64,000 bases of DNA. Source: Kiloniellales bacterium (GTDB lineage: Bacteria; Pseudomonadota; Alphaproteobacteria; Kiloniellales; JAKSBE01). Shown piece after piece: positions 28,752 through 34,884 of this stretch. Where the stretch lies: contig JASJBF010000001.1 in assembly GCA_030066685.1 (NCBI GenBank), forward strand, positions 310,001 through 374,000. Direction: 5' to 3'. The notes beneath the pieces were generated by a model. It was not told the origin of the DNA. It worked only from the letters and a program-made list of their open reading frames with translations, and did no database searches. A program made the translations under genes and the position numbers. Position 1 is the stretch's first letter, and each line of letters starts with the position of its first letter.

Positions 28752-29003
28752 ATGGCGGCGGAGAAATCACAAAACGTTCAGGACGTTTTTCTGAATCACG
28801 TCCGCAAGAACAAGGTTCCGGTCACCGTATTCCTGGTCAACGGTGTCAAGCTCCAAGGCGTGATCACTTGGTTCGACAATTTCTGCGTCCTGCTGCGGCG
28901 CGATGCACACTCGCAGCTTGTCTACAAGCACGCCATCTCTACCGTAATGCCGTCGACGCCGGTGCAGCTCTTCGAGCCGTCCAAGGAAGGAGAGGGGTCC
29001 TGA
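28752..29003 (+). CDS. hfq: RNA chaperone Hfq
   Basis: An 83-residue Sm-like protein. Sm1 is [23 protein letters not shown] and Sm2 is [10 protein letters not shown], with the proximal-face residues [15 protein letters not shown] before them. It forms a hexamer that pairs small RNAs with mRNAs. ATG 28752 follows GTGAGGGGGTCGC. The hfq-hflX order, with a 25-base gap, is common throughout proteobacteria. Confidence 0.98.
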
Positions 29004-29028
29004 CGGAGCGAACCTTAAGGATCTCAGA

Positions 29029-30369
29029 TTGAATCGGGAGGATCCCAGCGCAGCGGCACCGGCGGGAAAGGAAAGCTCGACCGGCCGCGTCGTGGTGCTG
29101 CATCCGGCCCTGGCAGAGGCGCGGCAGAGCCGACGCGCTGCCGAGGGGCGCCTGGCCGAAGCCGTGAGCCTCGCCGCAGCCATCGATCTCGAGGTCGTAC
29201 ACGCTGAAGTTGCAACACTCCCGCGGCCGCGGCCGGCGACTCTCTTCGGTCAAGGCACCGTCGAGCGCCTGGCCGGGACCGTCTCGGCCTGCCGGGCCGA
29301 TCTTGTGCTGGTCGACCGGGCGCTGTCCCCGGTGCAGCAGCGCAATCTCGAAAAGGCTTGGAAGACCAAGGTTATCGATCGGACCGGGCTGATCCTCGAG
29401 ATCTTCGGCGCCCGGGCCAGGACCAAGGAGGGCAGCCTGCAGGTCGAGCTGGCGGCCTTGAACTACCAGCGCTCGCGCCTGGTGCGCTCTTGGACCCACC
29501 TGGAGCGGCAGCGTGGCGGCTTCGGCTTCCTCGGCGGCCCGGGCGAGAGCCAGCTGGAGATCGACCGGCGCCTGATCTCGGAGCGGATCACGCGGATCAA
29601 GGCCGAGCTCGAGAAGGTCAAGCGCCGGCGCGGCCTGCATCGCCGGGCGCGTCAGCGCGTGCCCTATCCGGTGGTCGCCCTAGTCGGCTACACCAACGCC
29701 GGAAAGTCGACGCTTTTCAACAGGATCACCGGCGATGCGCAGCTCGCGCACGACATGCTCTTCGCGACCCTGGATCCGACCATGCGCCTGGTGCGCCTGC
29801 CGGGCGGCCTGGAGGCCATCCTCTCCGACACCGTCGGCTTCATTTCCGACCTGCCGACCGACCTGGTGGCAGCCTTCCGGGCCACCCTGGAGGAGGTGGT
29901 CGAGGCCGACCTGATCCTCCACGTCCGGGACATCGCCAACCCCGACAGCGAGGCCCAGCGCCAGGACGTCCTGGCTATCCTCGCCGACCTCGGCCTGGAG
30001 GCCGGCGCCGAAGAGCCCATGCTCGAGGCGCTCAACAAGATCGACAGCCTGACCCCGGCACAGCGGCAGGCGGTGCGCGAGCGCGCCGCACGCAAGCCGG
30101 AGGTCCTGGCCTGCTCGGCCCTGACCGGCGAGGGCCTGCCCGAGCTACTGCAGGCCGTCGAGGCGCGGCTGGTGCGAGACCACAAGCGGGTCGAACTGAC
30201 CCTCGGGCCGGAGGAAGGGGCCGCCATCGCCTGGCTCCACGAGCACGGCCGGGTCCTGGAGCGTCGGGAGGTCGAGGGCAAGACGCACATGTGCATCAGC
30301 CTGAGCCCGGCGGCCCTGGCCCGCTTCGAGCAGCGCTACGGCGCGCAGCGGGAGGCCGCGGCGGAGTGA
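29029..30369 (+). CDS. hflX: ribosome-associated GTPase HflX
   Basis: A 446-residue GTPase. The N-terminal HflX domain includes LFGQGTVERLAG, and a basic coiled coil around RITRIKAELEKVKRRR leads to the G domain with G1 GYTNAGKST (from residue 220), G3 SDTVGFISDLP and G4 NKID. HflX splits or rescues stalled ribosomes under stress. The start TTG 29029 lies 25 bases downstream of hfq and is preceded by AAGGATC; no ATG is available nearby. A seven-base gap leads to the next gene. Confidence 0.95.
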   Translation: MNREDPSAAAPAGKESSTGRVVVLHPALAEARQSRRAAEGRLAEAVSLAAAIDLEVVHAEVATLPRPRPATLFGQGTVERLAGTVSACRADLVLVDRALSPVQQRNLEKAWKTKVIDRTGLILEIFGARARTKEGSLQVELAALNYQRSRLVRSWTHLERQRGGFGFLGGPGESQLEIDRRLISERITRIKAELEKVKRRRGLHRRARQRVPYPVVALVGYTNAGKSTLFNRITGDAQLAHDMLFATLDPTMRLVRLPGGLEAILSDTVGFISDLPTDLVAAFRATLEEVVEADLILHVRDIANPDSEAQRQDVLAILADLGLEAGAEEPMLEALNKIDSLTPAQRQAVRERAARKPEVLACSALTGEGLPELLQAVEARLVRDHKRVELTLGPEEGAAIAWLHEHGRVLERREVEGKTHMCISLSPAALARFEQRYGAQREAAAE

Positions 30370-30376
30370 GCGGCCT

Positions 30377-31219
30377 GTGACCGTCTCGATCGAAGAGGTC
30401 ACCCGGGTCCTGCTGGAGACGGCAGCCGAAGAGGTGCTCCCGCGGTTCCGCAGCCTCGACGAAGAGGACAAGCGGATCAAGGCGGGCGGCGAGGTCGTGA
30501 CCGTCGCCGACGAAGCCGCGGAGCGGCGCCTGACGCAGCGCCTGCGCGCCCTCCTGCCGGGTTCCCTGGTGGTCGGCGAGGAGGCCGCCGCCGCCGATCC
30601 CGAGGTCTTCGCGAATCTGGCCCGGGACGAAGCGGTCTGGCTGATCGATCCCATCGATGGCACCACCAACTTCGCCGAAGGCGTGCCGGTCTTCGCGATG
30701 ATGCTGGCCCTGGTCGAGCGGGGAGAGATCTGCGCCGCCTGGATCCACGACGTGCCCGGCGAGCGGACCGGCGTGGCGGAGCGGGGCAGCGGCAGCTGGA
30801 TCGAGGGGCACCGTCTCCAGGTCGCCGCCGCCGCCGCCCTCGGTGAGATGACCGGGACGCTTCATGCCGGCCAGTTCGGCGGCTCGGAGCTGCGCGAGCG
30901 GATCCGGGCCAAGCGCGGCAAGCTGGGCGCGATCCGCAGCCTGCGCTGCGCCGGGGCGGAGTACCTGCGCCTGGCCGCCGGCGAGATGCACTACAGCCTC
31001 TTCACCAAGCTGATGCCCTGGGACCACGCGCCGGGCGTTCTCCTGCACGCCGAGGCGGGCGGCTACGCCTGGACCGCCGAGGACCGGCCCTATTCGCCGC
31101 GCCGGCGCGAAAGCCGCGGGCTCCTCCTGGCACCGGACGAGGCCTCCTGGCGCTTGCTCCACGAGGAGCTTTACGGCGACGCCGTGGTCACCACCGGGGG
31201 AACGCCAGGCGCGCCCTGA
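30377..31219 (+). CDS. inositol-monophosphatase-family phosphatase
   Basis: A 280-residue Mg-dependent phosphatase starting at GTG 30377. Metal-binding motifs are GEEAAA (near residue 70), DPIDGTTNFAEG with Asp91 and Asp94, and WDHAPGVLLHAEAGG near residue 215. The family includes inositol monophosphatase, histidinol-phosphate phosphatase and 3'-phosphoadenosine phosphatase (CysQ); I cannot separate these from motifs alone. It follows hflX by seven bases and is convergent with mazG, whose stop is 12 bases away. Confidence 0.88.
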   Translation: MTVSIEEVTRVLLETAAEEVLPRFRSLDEEDKRIKAGGEVVTVADEAAERRLTQRLRALLPGSLVVGEEAAAADPEVFANLARDEAVWLIDPIDGTTNFAEGVPVFAMMLALVERGEICAAWIHDVPGERTGVAERGSGSWIEGHRLQVAAAAALGEMTGTLHAGQFGGSELRERIRAKRGKLGAIRSLRCAGAEYLRLAAGEMHYSLFTKLMPWDHAPGVLLHAEAGGYAWTAEDRPYSPRRRESRGLLLAPDEASWRLLHEELYGDAVVTTGGTPGAP

Positions 31220-31231
31220 GCCTGCTGGCTC

Positions 31232-32041
31232 TCAGCCCTCCGAGGCTTTTGCCGCCTGCCAAAGGCCTTCGAGTTCGTCCAAGGAAGCTTCCGCGGGGCC
31301 GCGGCCCTGGGCGGCGAGGGCGGTCTCGATGGCCCGGAAGCGCCGCTCGAACTTGGCGTTGCAGCGGCGCAGGGCGACCTCGGGATCGATCGTGAGGTGG
31401 CGCGCCAGGTTGACCAGGGCGAAGAAGAGGTCGCCGATCTCGTCCTCCAACCGCTCCCGGTCGCCGCCGCAGGTCATTTCCTCTTTCAATTCAGAGACCT
31501 CTTCTTCGATCTTCGCAAAGACCTGGGCGGCTTCCGGCCAGTCGAAGCCGACTCGGGCAGCGCGCTTCTGCAGCTTCTCCGCGCGCATCAGGGCGGGCAG
31601 GGCGAGGGCCACGCCGCCGAGGACGCTCTCGCCATCACCCTTGGCGGCGCGCTCCTGGGCCTTGTGCTCCTCCCAGGCCCGGCGCTGGGCGGCCGCGCCC
31701 CCGACCTCGGTCTCGCCGAAGACGTGGGGGTGGCGGCGCTCCATCTTGTCGGAGATCGCGGCGGCGACCTGGGTGAAGTCGAAGGCGCCGGCCTCCTCGG
31801 CCATGCGGGCGTGGAAGACGACCTGGAGCAGCAGGTCGCCGAGCTCGTCGCGCAGCTCGCCCATATCGTCGGCCTCGATGGCCGCCGCCACCTCGTAGGC
31901 CTCCTCGATGGTGTAGGGGGCGATGCTGCGGAAGTCCTGCTCGATGTCCCAGGGACAGCCGTGCTTCGGATCGCGCAACCGGGCCATGATCTCGAGCAGG
32001 CGCCGGGTCTGCGCTTCGGCTTGGATCGATTCGTCGGTCAT
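31232..32041 (-). CDS. mazG: nucleoside triphosphate pyrophosphohydrolase MazG
   Basis: A 269-residue protein with two MazG domains. The first has PYTIEEAYEVAAAI and DELGDLLLQVVFHAR, the second KIEEEVSELKEEM and EDEIGDLFFALVNLAR, each supplying the Glu/Glu/Asp metal site. MazG cleans noncanonical nucleoside triphosphates and lowers ppGpp in E. coli. ATG at 32041 starts MTDESIQAEAQTRRLLEIMARL. The same frame stays open far upstream, but only as the complement of the divergent regulator gene. Confidence 0.96.
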   Translation of the reverse strand: MTDESIQAEAQTRRLLEIMARLRDPKHGCPWDIEQDFRSIAPYTIEEAYEVAAAIEADDMGELRDELGDLLLQVVFHARMAEEAGAFDFTQVAAAISDKMERRHPHVFGETEVGGAAAQRRAWEEHKAQERAAKGDGESVLGGVALALPALMRAEKLQKRAARVGFDWPEAAQVFAKIEEEVSELKEEMTCGGDRERLEDEIGDLFFALVNLARHLTIDPEVALRRCNAKFERRFRAIETALAAQGRGPAEASLDELEGLWQAAKASEG

Positions 32042-32121: not shown

Positions 32122-32185
32122 CCTTGACATAAACCTTGACATATGTGCGATCTGATAATATGTAATACGCGAAATAGATATATCT
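32122..32185 (+). promoter_or_regulatory. AT-rich promoter/operator region between mazG and the NrtR-like gene
   Basis: The 10-base word CCTTGACATA occurs twice with a 12-base period (32122-32131 and 32134-32143), giving two TTGACA -35-like boxes. GATAAT and TATGTA words at 32154-32164 could be -10 elements, the latter 17 bases after the second TTGACA. ACATATGT (32139-32146) and AGATATATCT (32176-32185) are perfect palindromes. The set lies just upstream of ATG 32201 and may include an autoregulatory operator. Confidence 0.55.
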
Positions 32186-32200
32186 CTGGGAACCGAAGCC

Positions 32201-32968
32201 ATGAGCGGCAAGGCCGGACAGACGACAGAAAGCGCTCCCGACGATCCCAGGGCCTACGAGCGGCCGTCGGTCACGGTCGACCTGGCGCTGCTTTCGGTCC
32301 GCGAGGGGCGTCTGAGCGTGCTCCTGCTGCGCCGCGACCGGGCGCCGTTCCAGGGTGCCTGGTCTCTGCCGGGCGGCTTCGTGCGCATCGACGAATCGCT
32401 CGAAGAAGCGGCGGAGCGGATTCTGCGCGAGAAGGCGCAGATGTCCGGCGTCTTCATGGAGCAGCTCTTCACCTTCGGCGCGATCGACCGCGACCCCCGC
32501 GCCCGCGTCATCACCGTGGCCTACTACGCCCTGGTGGAAGCCGGGCGGTTCGACGAGGCACTGAAAGCCTCGGCCGAGCTTTCCTTGTTTGAAATCCTCG
32601 TGCCCTGGGCGGGCGAGACCGGGGGCGCGGTCGCCATCTGCTCCGCCGACGGCGAGACCGAGCCGCTCGCCTTCGACCACGCCGAGATCCTCGGCATGGC
32701 GGTCAAGCGGCTGCGCGGCAAGCTGGACTACAGCCCGGTCGGCTTCGAGCTTCTGCCGGAGCGCTTCACCCTGCGCCAGCTCCAGGAGGTCCACGAGGCG
32801 ATCCTCAATCGCCGCATGAACAAGCCCGCCTTCCGCCGCCGGATGCTCGACAAGGGCGTCCTGCAGGCGACCGGAGAGCGGGAGAGCGGAGTCACCTACC
32901 GGCCGGCCGAGCTCTATCGCTTCCTCGCGCCGAAAGCCGCCGGTCCGGGCCAGAACCAGGAGGGTTGA
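32201..32968 (+). CDS. NrtR-like Nudix-family transcriptional regulator
   Basis: A 255-residue protein with an N-terminal Nudix fold (about residues 22-165) and a C-terminal winged helix (about 180-245, FTLRQLQEVHEAILNRRMNKPAFRRRML). This is the NrtR architecture: regulators of NAD metabolism that sense ADP-ribose or related compounds. The Nudix box begins correctly (G59 to E65) but Ile74, Lys78 and Gln80 replace the expected Glu, Glu and Gly, so hydrolysis is unlikely. It is the first of three tightly packed genes with the SPFH and NAD-kinase-like genes, three bases separating it from the next. Confidence 0.85.
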   Translation: MSGKAGQTTESAPDDPRAYERPSVTVDLALLSVREGRLSVLLLRRDRAPFQGAWSLPGGFVRIDESLEEAAERILREKAQMSGVFMEQLFTFGAIDRDPRARVITVAYYALVEAGRFDEALKASAELSLFEILVPWAGETGGAVAICSADGETEPLAFDHAEILGMAVKRLRGKLDYSPVGFELLPERFTLRQLQEVHEAILNRRMNKPAFRRRMLDKGVLQATGERESGVTYRPAELYRFLAPKAAGPGQNQEG

Positions 32969-32971
32969 GAC

Positions 32972-33976
32972 ATGGCCGAGATCCGCCGCTATCCCTTTCT
33001 GCGCCACCTGCGCAGCGAAGCCAGCGTTCACGTGACCCACTACCGCAAGGGCCGCAAGCACAGGGCGGGCAGGGGCCTGGCCTTCTGGTTCCGCCCCGAC
33101 GGCGCCAGCATCGCCGAGATCCCGATGGACGACCGCGACATGCCCTTTCTGTTCCGGGGCCGCTCCAAGGACTTTCAGGAGGTCACGGTGCAGGGGCTGA
33201 TCACCTGGCGGGTCGCCGATCCCGAGGGGCTCGCCGAGCGCCTGGACTTCACGATCGACTTGAAGACCGGCGCCTATCTCAATGAACCTATTGACCAGGT
33301 TGCGAGCCTCTTGACCGGGCTCGCACGTCAGGAGGCGCTGCGCTACCTGGCGGAGCTGCCGATCGGCGAGCTGCTGGAAAATGGCCCGGCGCCGGTCCAG
33401 GCCTGCGTCGAGCGCGGCCTGACCTCGGCCGAGCGCCTGACCGATATGGGGATCGAGGCGGTCACGGTCCGCCTAGCGGACCTGGCGCCCTCGGCCGAGC
33501 TGGACCGGGCCCTGCAGACCCCGACCTTCGAGGCCCTGCAGCAGCGCGCCGATCAGGCAACCTTCGAGCGCCGGGCCCTGGCGGTCGAGAAGGAGCGGGC
33601 GATCGCCGAGAACGAGCTGCAGAACCGCATCGAACTCGCACGCCGGGAAAGCCAGCTCATCGCCCAGGAAGACGAGAACGCCCGCAACCGCGCGACCGGC
33701 GAGGCCGAGGCCCGGCAGATCGCGGCGGCCGGGGAGGCCGAGCGGATCCGGGTCGTCGGCCAGGCCCGCGCCGAGACCGAGAAGGCGCGCATGGAGGTCT
33801 ACCGCGACCTGCCGCGCGACGTCCTCCTGGCCCTGGCGGCCCGGGAGTTCGCCGGCAAGCTGACCTCGATCGAGCACCTCAGCGTCACGCCGGACCTGCT
33901 GGGCAGCCTGCTGGGCTATCTGGCCCGTGCGGGAGCCAAGCGCCTCGAGCACGACGCCCAGACGGGCGCCGACTAG
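32972..33976 (+). CDS. SPFH/band-7 domain protein without transmembrane anchor
   Basis: A 334-residue protein. Residues about 15-185 resemble the SPFH (prohibitin/flotillin) domain, including VTVQGLITWRVADPEGLAERL and a final ADLAPSAELDRALQTPT. A long charged coiled coil follows (about 190-270, rich in ERRALAVEKERAIAENE and EAEARQIAAAGEAERIR). No N-terminal hydrophobic segment is seen, unlike most slipins. SPFH proteins form large ring- or cage-like assemblies on membranes. Co-transcription with an NAD-responsive regulator and an NAD-kinase-like protein suggests a shared role that I cannot name. Confidence 0.85.
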   Translation: MAEIRRYPFLRHLRSEASVHVTHYRKGRKHRAGRGLAFWFRPDGASIAEIPMDDRDMPFLFRGRSKDFQEVTVQGLITWRVADPEGLAERLDFTIDLKTGAYLNEPIDQVASLLTGLARQEALRYLAELPIGELLENGPAPVQACVERGLTSAERLTDMGIEAVTVRLADLAPSAELDRALQTPTFEALQQRADQATFERRALAVEKERAIAENELQNRIELARRESQLIAQEDENARNRATGEAEARQIAAAGEAERIRVVGQARAETEKARMEVYRDLPRDVLLALAAREFAGKLTSIEHLSVTPDLLGSLLGYLARAGAKRLEHDAQTGAD

Positions 33977-33987
33977 GCGGGCGGGCC

Positions 33988-34884
33988 ATGGCCAGCACCG
34001 CGGCCCGCGCCGTGGTCGTGACGCGCGAGACAGACTACGAAGCTCTGCTCGCGCGCCACGCCACCCGGGAGCAGGCGCGCTTCTTCCTGAAAAGCCGCGG
34101 CCAGAGCCTGGAGGCGGTCGAGGCGCGCCACACACGATTCCAGGCCGCGCTGCAACAGGTCCGCACGGCGATCCCGCTGGACTGGCGTCGCTCCCTGATC
34201 CGCCGGGGCGACCTGGACCGCTTCCTCTTCGGCCCCGAGGATGTGGTGATCGCGGTCGGCCAGGACGGCCTGGTTGCCAACCTGGCGAAGTACCTGGACG
34301 GGCAGCCGGTCCTGGGGATCAACCCGGAGCCGGAGGTCAATCCCGGGCTCCTGGTGCCGCTGCCACCGGCGGCGACCGGCGGGCTTCTGCTGCCGGCGGC
34401 CGAGGGCACGGCGGATCTGGAGCCCCGTACCATGGCCGAGGCCCGCCTGGACGACGGCCAGAGCCTTCTGGCCCTCAACGAGATCTTCGTAGGCCATCGC
34501 AGCCACCAGTCGGCCCGCTACCGGCTGTCCCGGGACGGGCAGGTCGAGGAACAGTCCTCTTCCGGGATCATCGTCGCCACCGGGACCGGGGCCACGGGCT
34601 GGGCCCGCTCGATCATGGAGAGCCGCCGGATCACTCTGGAGCTCGATCCCGTCGCACGCGAACTCGGGTTCTTCGTCCGCGAGCCCTGGCCCAGCGCGAC
34701 CACCGGCACCGCCCTGTCGGCCGGCCGGCTGGGCGACGGCGCCGCACTCGAGGTGCTGTCGCACATGCAAAGCGGCGGCGTGGTCTTCGCCGACGGCATC
34801 GAGGCCGACCACCTCGGCTTCGACTGGGGCCGCCGGCTCGAGGTCCGCGTCGCCGAACGGCGCCTCAACCTGGTGAGGGGATAG
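33988..34884 (+). CDS. divergent NAD-kinase-like (ATP-NAD kinase fold) protein
   Basis: A 298-residue protein whose motif order resembles NAD kinase. DVVIAVGQDGLVANLAKYL (residues 85-103) replaces the usual GGDGT by GQDGL; GINPEPEVN is the counterpart of the GIN motif; LNEIFVGH matches the conserved LNE; and IIVATGTGATGWARSI resembles the Ser/Thr-Gly nucleotide loop. The Gly-to-Gln change sits in the catalytic loop, although the Asp is kept, so activity toward NAD is uncertain. It starts 11 bases after the SPFH gene. A true housekeeping NAD kinase is presumably elsewhere. Confidence 0.75.
   Translation: MASTAARAVVVTRETDYEALLARHATREQARFFLKSRGQSLEAVEARHTRFQAALQQVRTAIPLDWRRSLIRRGDLDRFLFGPEDVVIAVGQDGLVANLAKYLDGQPVLGINPEPEVNPGLLVPLPPAATGGLLLPAAEGTADLEPRTMAEARLDDGQSLLALNEIFVGHRSHQSARYRLSRDGQVEEQSSSGIIVATGTGATGWARSIMESRRITLELDPVARELGFFVREPWPSATTGTALSAGRLGDGAALEVLSHMQSGGVVFADGIEADHLGFDWGRRLEVRVAERRLNLVRG

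Follow-up and report, generated by a model that had tools for sequence, protein, structure and literature searches.

Which cellular task might require a NrtR-like transcriptional regulator, an SPFH protein and a divergent relative of NAD kinases to be encoded side by side? This question is raised by a gene triad of a Kiloniellales bacterium, positioned at 32201-34884 of a 64,000-nucleotide stretch of contig JASJBF010000001.1 (this entire analyzed stretch is referred to here as the window). The three open reading frames (ORFs) are all located on the + strand, at 32201-32968, 32972-33976 and 33988-34884 in the ORF reading of the window, with gaps of 3 and 11 bases between them. A first-pass annotation of this DNA had already described the trio, with the same spacing, as a NrtR-like regulator, an SPFH protein without a membrane anchor and a divergent NAD-kinase-like protein, and both the ORFs and the domain matches agree with this description. 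We report here that the linkage of these genes, the existence of a dedicated genetic switch and the NADK2-type fold of the kinase-like protein are well supported. Several lines of evidence suggest a link of the triad to NAD or ADP-ribose, and the trio probably acts on the NAD pool of the cell.

The triad is a conserved genetic unit

A triad confined to close relatives would have spoken against the interpretation of the first-pass annotation; a neighbourhood survey found the contrary, since the triad is present in at least five phyla. Among 58 genomes of the window's order (the window's own included), eight carry a close homologue of the kinase-like protein P0003 (E below 1e-90). The other matches in this order, with E values of 1e-4 to 1e-7, resemble ordinary NAD kinases; a GGDG motif is present in all 22 of them that were fetched. 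The SPFH gene adjoins the kinase-like gene in each of the seven other genomes of the order, and the regulatory gene accompanies them in six. In 398 genomes of the window's phylum, independent searches detected the kinase-like gene in 12 genomes and the SPFH gene in the same 12; apart from the window's genome, the two genes are neighbours in 11 of 11 cases and the regulator is present in seven, with two of the four misses situated at contig ends (L053, L055) and two away from them (L054, L060). The phylum of a Kribbella genome (296 genomes) yielded 12 kinase-like and 13 SPFH genes, the 12 shared ones being adjacent to each other, and the contig of the 13th ends inside the SPFH gene. Two separately searched profiles thus marked the same genomes among 694 representatives of two phyla, one cut contig apart. 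In the phylum of a Phycisphaerales genome, where the kinase-like protein alone served as the query, 32 of 199 genomes gave a match at 1e-20; for those with E below 1e-80, an SPFH gene adjoins in 26 of 27 cases, and the 27th frame is cut off where its sequence ends. The five weaker matches were excluded; three of them were fetched (two with GGDGT, one with GGDN), and an SPFH gene lies beside none.

We then scanned one genome per species and kept the best 80 of at least 523 relatives as named loci. In 79 of these 80 loci the SPFH gene is found beside the kinase-like gene, and the exception (L106) starts at a contig end. In 64 of the 79 loci the two genes are spaced by -4 to +13 bases; in L093, 977 bases separate them. 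A regulatory gene flanks the pair in 67 loci, either in the same direction (45) or divergently oriented (22), and is absent from 13, of which four (L074, L098, L106, L107) offer too little sequence and nine offer enough. Operator-like palindromes, recognized by eye, still precede the SPFH gene in the regulator-less loci L112, L119, L129, L133 and L135. When the ORFs of the 80 loci were clustered (E 1e-15, with most of the longer ORF covered), SPFH proteins from 77 loci, kinase-like proteins from 75 and regulators from 65 grouped together, and the next other cluster comprised 12 scattered loci. The next large clusters, which overlap the triad genes on the strand opposite to them, we read as antisense shadows; these aside, any family beyond the three recurs in at most 12 of the best 80 loci, in a survey that included no search for NfeD by name.

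The best 80 loci belong to the Pseudomonadota (41), Actinomycetota (27), Planctomycetota (4), Myxococcota (4), Acidobacteriota (1) and Chloroflexota (1), with two unassigned. The full triad occurs in all of these groups except the Chloroflexota, whose single locus is an SPFH-kinase pair, and this multi-phylum survey rules out a purely local gene cluster. It also contradicts the idea that the three genes merely travel together without a joint function: the nine complete loci devoid of a regulator and the shift of this gene between two layouts would fit such hitch-hiking, but co-occurrence and adjacency across phyla, together with a shared operator, make it scarcely credible. Alignments were built from 71 of the 80 kinase-like, 69 of the 79 SPFH and 59 of the 67 regulator sequences, each together with the window's own protein. 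The protein distances of the SPFH and kinase-like proteins correlate with r 0.93 (59 shared rows), and those of the regulator with r 0.78 and 0.83, values to which shared descent alone contributes in all three cases. In a quickly computed protein tree (72 rows), the phylum changes eight times, with a minimum of five and a mean of 29.4 after shuffling; the tree hence follows the phyla, which argues against wild lateral transfer. In one locus (L185, genome G591), the kinase-like and the SPFH matches each contain one internal stop; this is possibly a terminal stop, a decaying copy or a misassembled copy.

The kinase-like protein is of the NADK2 type

P0003 (33988-34884, + strand; 298 amino acids) is an NADK2-type NAD-kinase-like protein in which the sequence GQDGL replaces GGDGT. 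Its score against the Pfam family NAD_kinase falls below the cut-off (15.8 vs 25.5 bits; E 0.018), and 5 of 72 P0003 relatives match this family at E 1e-3. The P0003 sequence matches mitochondrial NAD kinase 2 (NADK2) at 6.1e-12, and the profile of its family does so at 1.6e-18, with 1.4e-7 for the best bacterial NAD kinase. The structural model (predicted local distance difference test, pLDDT, 95.3) shows the NAD-kinase fold, and its top match is again NADK2 (Z 26.8, root-mean-square deviation [rmsd] 2.7, 276 aligned residues, 25% identity), with the Pseudomonas aeruginosa NAD kinase at Z 23.2 (247 aligned residues).

The GGDG(T) loop of NAD kinases faces the phosphate donor, and a catalytic Asp residue and an Asn-Glu motif have their roles in these enzymes. 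Eighteen positions are invariant in all 72 kinase-like proteins (D93, G94, L95, N98, K101, N164, H173, Q174, Y178, S191, S192, G193, W205, R231, E232, D269, G270 and E272), and E165 is kept in 71 of them. Since the GGDG(T) loop faces the donor, the donor side of P0003 seems to be remodelled while the catalytic Asp and the acceptor side are retained, and because it is the phosphate-donor motif that is replaced, the activity of P0003 as a kinase might have changed or disappeared. The GQDG sequence is also found in all 15 rows of a separate alignment, six of them sharing 40-42% identity with P0003; its presence there and in 68 of the 72 rows indicates that the change is old and nearly fixed.

These data bear on the most serious competitor of a kinase reading, in which the NADK2-type protein is a pseudokinase that binds NAD(P)(H) and gates the assembly or disassembly of an SPFH oligomer, so that the module serves as a redox or NAD(P) sensor. 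The two donor-side positions of GGDGT have been exchanged consistently (Q92 in 68/72, L95 in 72/72) and the acceptor side is kept, as one would expect of such a protein. The invariance of D93 and N164 in all 72 sequences, however, exceeds the needs of a mere binding protein, and we consider this explanation unlikely, albeit worth keeping in mind, as the sequences by themselves fit a sensor as well as a kinase.

The genome that carries the triad also contains another match to NAD kinases, a weaker one (G000:C42:33898; E 1e-4), which is probably the housekeeping NAD kinase. The phylum of the Phycisphaerales genome contains two NADK2-type proteins with a GGDGT motif, beside which no SPFH gene was found (L227, 1324-2253; L228, 1330-2190). 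A comparison with two NADK2 fragments favours the triad family, because the fragments were cut where its own profile matched; fragment 1 gave 37.9 bits for L227 and 37.3 bits for L228 vs at most 26.4 bits for the triad family, and the best 14 rows for fragment 2 all belong to the latter. The fragment 1 scores weaken the notion that the triad family represents the closest bacterial kin of NADK2. A further NADK-like protein (L226, 1480-2355), without an SPFH gene found beside it, has GGDN in place of GGDG.

The regulator and its ligand pocket

NrtR proteins are ADP-ribose-responsive, Nudix-related repressors of NAD synthesis. P0001 (32201-32968, + strand; 255 amino acids) can be classified through Pfam, NCBIfam and individual residues as a NrtR-like transcriptional regulator with a degenerate Nudix domain and a NrtR winged helix. 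It possesses the domain order required of the NrtR family, a Nudix domain (46.2 bits, cut-off 21.1; 5.7e-12) followed by the NrtR winged helix (NrtR_WHD, 84 bits, cut-off 27; 8e-24), and it additionally matches the Pfam family AraR_C (44.5 bits; 1.9e-11). Its score against the NrtR equivalog model of NCBIfam (NF050029) is below the cut-off (162.5 vs 400 bits), and its Nudix catalytic box is degraded (R73, I74, L75, R76, E77, K78). In the set of 60 aligned regulators, an intact catalytic box is found in none of the 39 same-direction proteins vs 19 of the 21 divergent ones. A strict pairing of layout with Nudix catalysis fails nevertheless, since among 15 further regulators only that of L056, a same-strand locus, is intact and eight divergent ones are degraded.

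Four residues of P0001, R45, R97, R100 and H160, are each conserved in 59 of the 60 regulators. According to the excerpted text of PMC4666351, Arg98 of SoNrtR contacts ADP-ribose and corresponds to Gly89 in the sugar-binding BtAraR, and Arg34, Arg86 and His131 of AraR contact arabinose. By counting along the alignment, with a deduced numbering offset of 3, we found that R100 aligns with SoNrtR Arg98 and AraR Gly89, and that R45, R97 and H160 pair with the three AraR residues (the H160 pairing is likewise deduced). Because these four residues are kept and match SoNrtR and AraR contacts, the pocket of the regulator looks like that of a binder of pentose nucleotides, with a gap at the position of the Tyr that contacts adenine.

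The resemblance to AraR invites a different interpretation, namely that the regulator senses a sugar and that a sugar or sugar nucleotide is the substrate of the kinase-like protein. Besides the AraR_C match and the three shared sugar-contacting residues, AraR is the best match of the regulator in the PDB, and plasmid-borne copies of the kinase-like gene are annotated as 'sugar kinase'. We rejected the sugar-kinase interpretation, which strikes us as very improbable, on the grounds that 59 of 60 proteins retain R100 where AraR has Gly and that the fold of P0003 is that of NAD kinases with NADK2 in first place; moreover, the NrtR_WHD score exceeds that for AraR_C, and no sugar-utilization family is conserved nearby.

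A putative operator precedes the triad

An inverted repeat with two ten-base arms, ATATCTAATA-N4-TATTAGATAT (32158-32181, assigned to no strand), is located 19 bases in front of the P0001 start codon and is a putative operator of the NrtR-like regulator; the window's copy has three differences. The palindrome is kept in all three species of the window's genus, where the flanking DNA varies. Allowing at most three mismatches, a threshold that would miss more degenerate sites, we found a single site per genome in these three genomes, always ahead of the triad, and none with the reversed control; a pattern tailored to the copy in the window was absent from 100 shuffled versions of this DNA. This distribution is at odds with a NAD-synthesis regulon in the three genomes. 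In the divergent layout, two copies of TATCGTCA-N3-TGACGATA are present at the regulator-SPFH junction in each of the 10 genomes searched (out of 22 such loci), and they overlap the called start of the regulatory gene in some of them. From the palindromes at the triad, which are single per genome in the window's genus, the regulator seems to be devoted to its own module, and this is clearest in this genus.

Upstream of the palindrome, a TTGACA sequence at 32136-32141 (+ strand), recognized by eye, might serve as a -35 hexamer, and a second TTGACA is present at 32124-32129; a consensus promoter scan reported no site. The block ACCTTGACATAT is identical across the three species of the window's genus.

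The SPFH protein lacks an N-terminal membrane anchor

P0002 (32972-33976, + strand; 334 amino acids) matches the Band_7/SPFH family of Pfam at 3.8e-11, and this domain is present in all 70 rows of the SPFH alignment. An AlphaFold2 model derived from these 70 rows (mean pLDDT 87.5) consists of an SPFH core, a predicted 104-residue helix and, at the C terminus, a short helical portion, and it resembles the folds of HflK/C, prohibitin, stomatin, erlin, flotillin and the vault protein. Its best VIA match is 7vhq_G (Z 14.5, rmsd 7.5, 230 aligned residues), a Z of a kind that, according to a warning of the tool, long helices can yield without kinship; the isolated SPFH domain of stomatin fits with Z 12.7 and rmsd 2.3 over 111 aligned residues. 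Folds missing from the VIA match lists were given no weight. The best-conserved part of P0002 is the first half of the helix (residues 175-235), with a mean majority share of 0.77 vs 0.53-0.63 in the other segments (the variable tail excluded), a pattern that may reflect a partner-binding or assembly surface.

No N-terminal transmembrane stretch was found in P0002, whose top hydropathy over 19 residues is 0.9. Nine of the 70 SPFH rows exceed 1.6, and in the five highest the stretch begins at residue 148, away from the N terminus. The first-pass annotation had proposed a membrane function responsive to NAD(P) or ADP-ribose. Its NAD theme gains indirectly from the ligand residues of the regulator, the NADK2-type fold and one neighbourhood resembling NAD salvage (see below), but the membrane function is conjectural: P0002 has no N-terminal anchor, and its fold relatives include both membrane rings and the vault protein.

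Plasmids, a viral contig and the surrounding genes

Of 72,556 plasmid records, 57 carry the kinase-like gene, and Rhizobium accounts for 42 of these 57. Six plasmids were opened, and four contain the whole triad in the divergent layout (R. etli p42f, Moraxella pNP7-1 and plasmids of Providencia and Methylomonas), with annotations reading NUDIX, SPFH and either 'sugar kinase' or 'hypothetical'. A Roseomonas plasmid has the SPFH gene and no recognized regulator, and pAST2 (L177) has a short ORF, annotated as hypothetical, at the SPFH position and no annotated Nudix gene alongside; the corresponding ORF of Moraxella osloensis pNP7-1 (L178) is full-length and annotated as SPFH. For a Nudix gene downstream of the Methylomonas triad, no NAD-specific family was matched. 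In pAST2 and pNP7-1 the kinase-like gene directly adjoins tetR-tet(H), and the unit therefore appears to ride with a tetracycline-resistance element on these plasmids.

Peptide patterns led us to an SPFH-kinase pair, 9 bases apart, on a 257-kb contig of the IMG/VR collection (IMGVR_UViG_3300023296_000874; L197, 637-9156), whose kinase-like protein is 44% identical to P0003. It is part of a same-strand run encoding a NrtR-like protein, an isochorismatase-domain protein, ClpP, a DUF3228 protein, the SPFH and kinase-like proteins, a nicotinate phosphoribosyltransferase-like protein and a lysyl-tRNA synthetase. The NrtR-like protein matches the model for ADP-ribose-responsive repressors at 1.9e-17, the isochorismatase-domain protein weakly that for nicotinamidase (0.00065) and the phosphoribosyltransferase-like protein its model at 1.2e-24, all with scores below the curated cut-offs of these models. 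R2K ATP-grasp and RlaP genes located near this run fit a jumbo phage; the viral label is that of the IMG/VR collection. A phage-borne origin of the unit was discarded, as no match was present in 50,697 phage records and a single locus was found among viral contigs.

This distribution could point to a stress or conflict system, in which NADase effectors or ADP-ribosylating toxins raise ADP-ribose and thereby induce a NAD-preserving unit, the phage copy acting as counter-defence. The patchy, accessory occurrence of the unit and its presence on plasmids and one predicted viral contig would suit such a role. Against it, PADLOC-DB 2.0.0 contains no model matching the SPFH or the kinase-like protein (the Nudix part weakly matches PDC-S07; 0.0013), the phage records are empty, no neighbour of any kind is conserved (defence genes were not looked for by name in the neighbourhood), and the protein tree follows the phyla fairly well. 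We therefore judge this scenario to be improbable.

In the window itself, ORFs whose translations resemble hfq, hflX and mazG products directly precede the triad (28752-32041), the mazG-like ORF lying on the opposite strand with its start near 32041; a Rieske-type ORF, also identified from its translation, follows the triad. In some other bacteria, genes for HflK/C adjoin hfq-hflX (excerpted text of PMC13086221). Since the SPFH gene of the window is of a different kind from HflK/C, the proximity to hfq-hflX looks coincidental.

A possible function of the triad

The repression, ligand, kinase activity, SPFH-kinase contact, oligomerization and physiological role that we infer can be combined into a tentative model, to which we assign a rough probability of 0.45: the triad is a self-contained and self-repressed accessory module, induced by ADP-ribose or another product of NAD, in which an SPFH assembly holds a NADK2-type NAD(H) kinase. 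The regulator would occupy its own operator and thus repress itself, until a NAD-derived nucleotide, most likely ADP-ribose, accumulates upon the cleavage or turnover of NAD and releases it. The operon would then yield a soluble SPFH protein that may oligomerize to a ring or a cage, and this scaffold would hold the NADK2-type enzyme, which would act on the pyridine-nucleotide pool, most likely as a kinase that converts NAD(H) into NADP(H) by means of an altered phosphate-donor loop.

Several observations weigh against this model. The GGDG motif has become GQDG in 68 and GPDG in 4 of the 72 kinase-like proteins, and the following Thr is Leu (L95) in all of them. The Tyr of SoNrtR that contacts adenine corresponds to Asp14 in P0001, and a Tyr is present in 31 of 60 rows. 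No regulator is adjacent in nine of the 80 loci with upstream sequence or in L036, L054 and L060, and 11 further operator-like sites with 1-2 mismatches are located elsewhere in 9 of the 10 divergent-layout genomes (control, 1). No fusion joining two members of the triad and no experiment on the triad were found. Relatives of the NAD-salvage genes of the viral contig are beside none of 98 bacterial loci, bar one weak isochorismatase-like ORF (L105). A broader version of the model, in which a widespread bacterial NAD-handling assembly holds the GQDGL enzyme in an SPFH ring or cage, responds to ADP-ribose as a warning that NAD is being lost, and lent its SPFH-kinase pair to a large phage for NAD salvage, is more doubtful still.

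The components of the triad are known families; their combination, a dedicated operon for an SPFH protein and its partner under a NrtR-type switch, was not found in the open-licence literature searched. No description of the triad as a system, and nothing joining SPFH with NAD kinase or 'SPFH domain' with NrtR, was found there, which is weak evidence of absence. An SPFH subfamily with one enzyme partner across phyla offers a direct handle on the purpose of the scaffold and, if our model is correct, would connect SPFH scaffolds with pyridine-nucleotide metabolism through a dedicated system. According to the excerpted text of PMC6675116, prokaryotes typically encode a single NAD kinase; a second, motif-altered one under the control of a switch responding to a NAD metabolite would, if true, be an inducible layer of NADP supply. 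The provenance of the mitochondrial NAD kinase clade is described in the same text as unknown (PMC6675116), and bacterial NADK2-type proteins, both those of the triad and their GGDGT relatives L227 and L228, bear on this clade.

Comparison with known systems

The regulator shares with NrtR proteins (SoNrtR, MsNrtR) the Nudix domain and NrtR winged helix, a palindrome in front of its own gene, the conserved ligand residues and, in the window's copy, a degenerate Nudix box. It differs from them in that the palindrome precedes only the triad in three genomes, in its equivalog score of 162.5 vs 400, and in the intact catalytic box kept by 19 of the 21 divergent-layout copies of the set. P0002 resembles the major vault protein, an SPFH-fold cage protein of which the structure library holds, judging by the titles, vaults with ADP-ribose and with PARP4. 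It matches this protein with a Z of about 12 but an rmsd above 20, which for a long helix may reflect a common arrangement alone, and the similarity points neither to descent nor to a cage in this case. Like the SPFH operons NfeD-SPFH and HflK/HflC, the triad combines an SPFH domain and a long coiled coil with a dedicated operon partner. Prokaryotic SPFH proteins were sorted into the subfamilies SPFH1-12, with SPFH8 and SPFH9 being soluble (excerpted text of PMC2636767); in the triad, however, the partner is of the NADK2 type, and kinase, Nudix and NAD are absent from the main text of PMC2636767. P0003 differs from mitochondrial NADK2 in its GQDGL vs GGDGT motif, its partner genes and an identity of 25%, but NADK2 remains its best match in both sequence and fold, with an N-terminal segment and the SSG...TGTG...W stretch shared between the two proteins.

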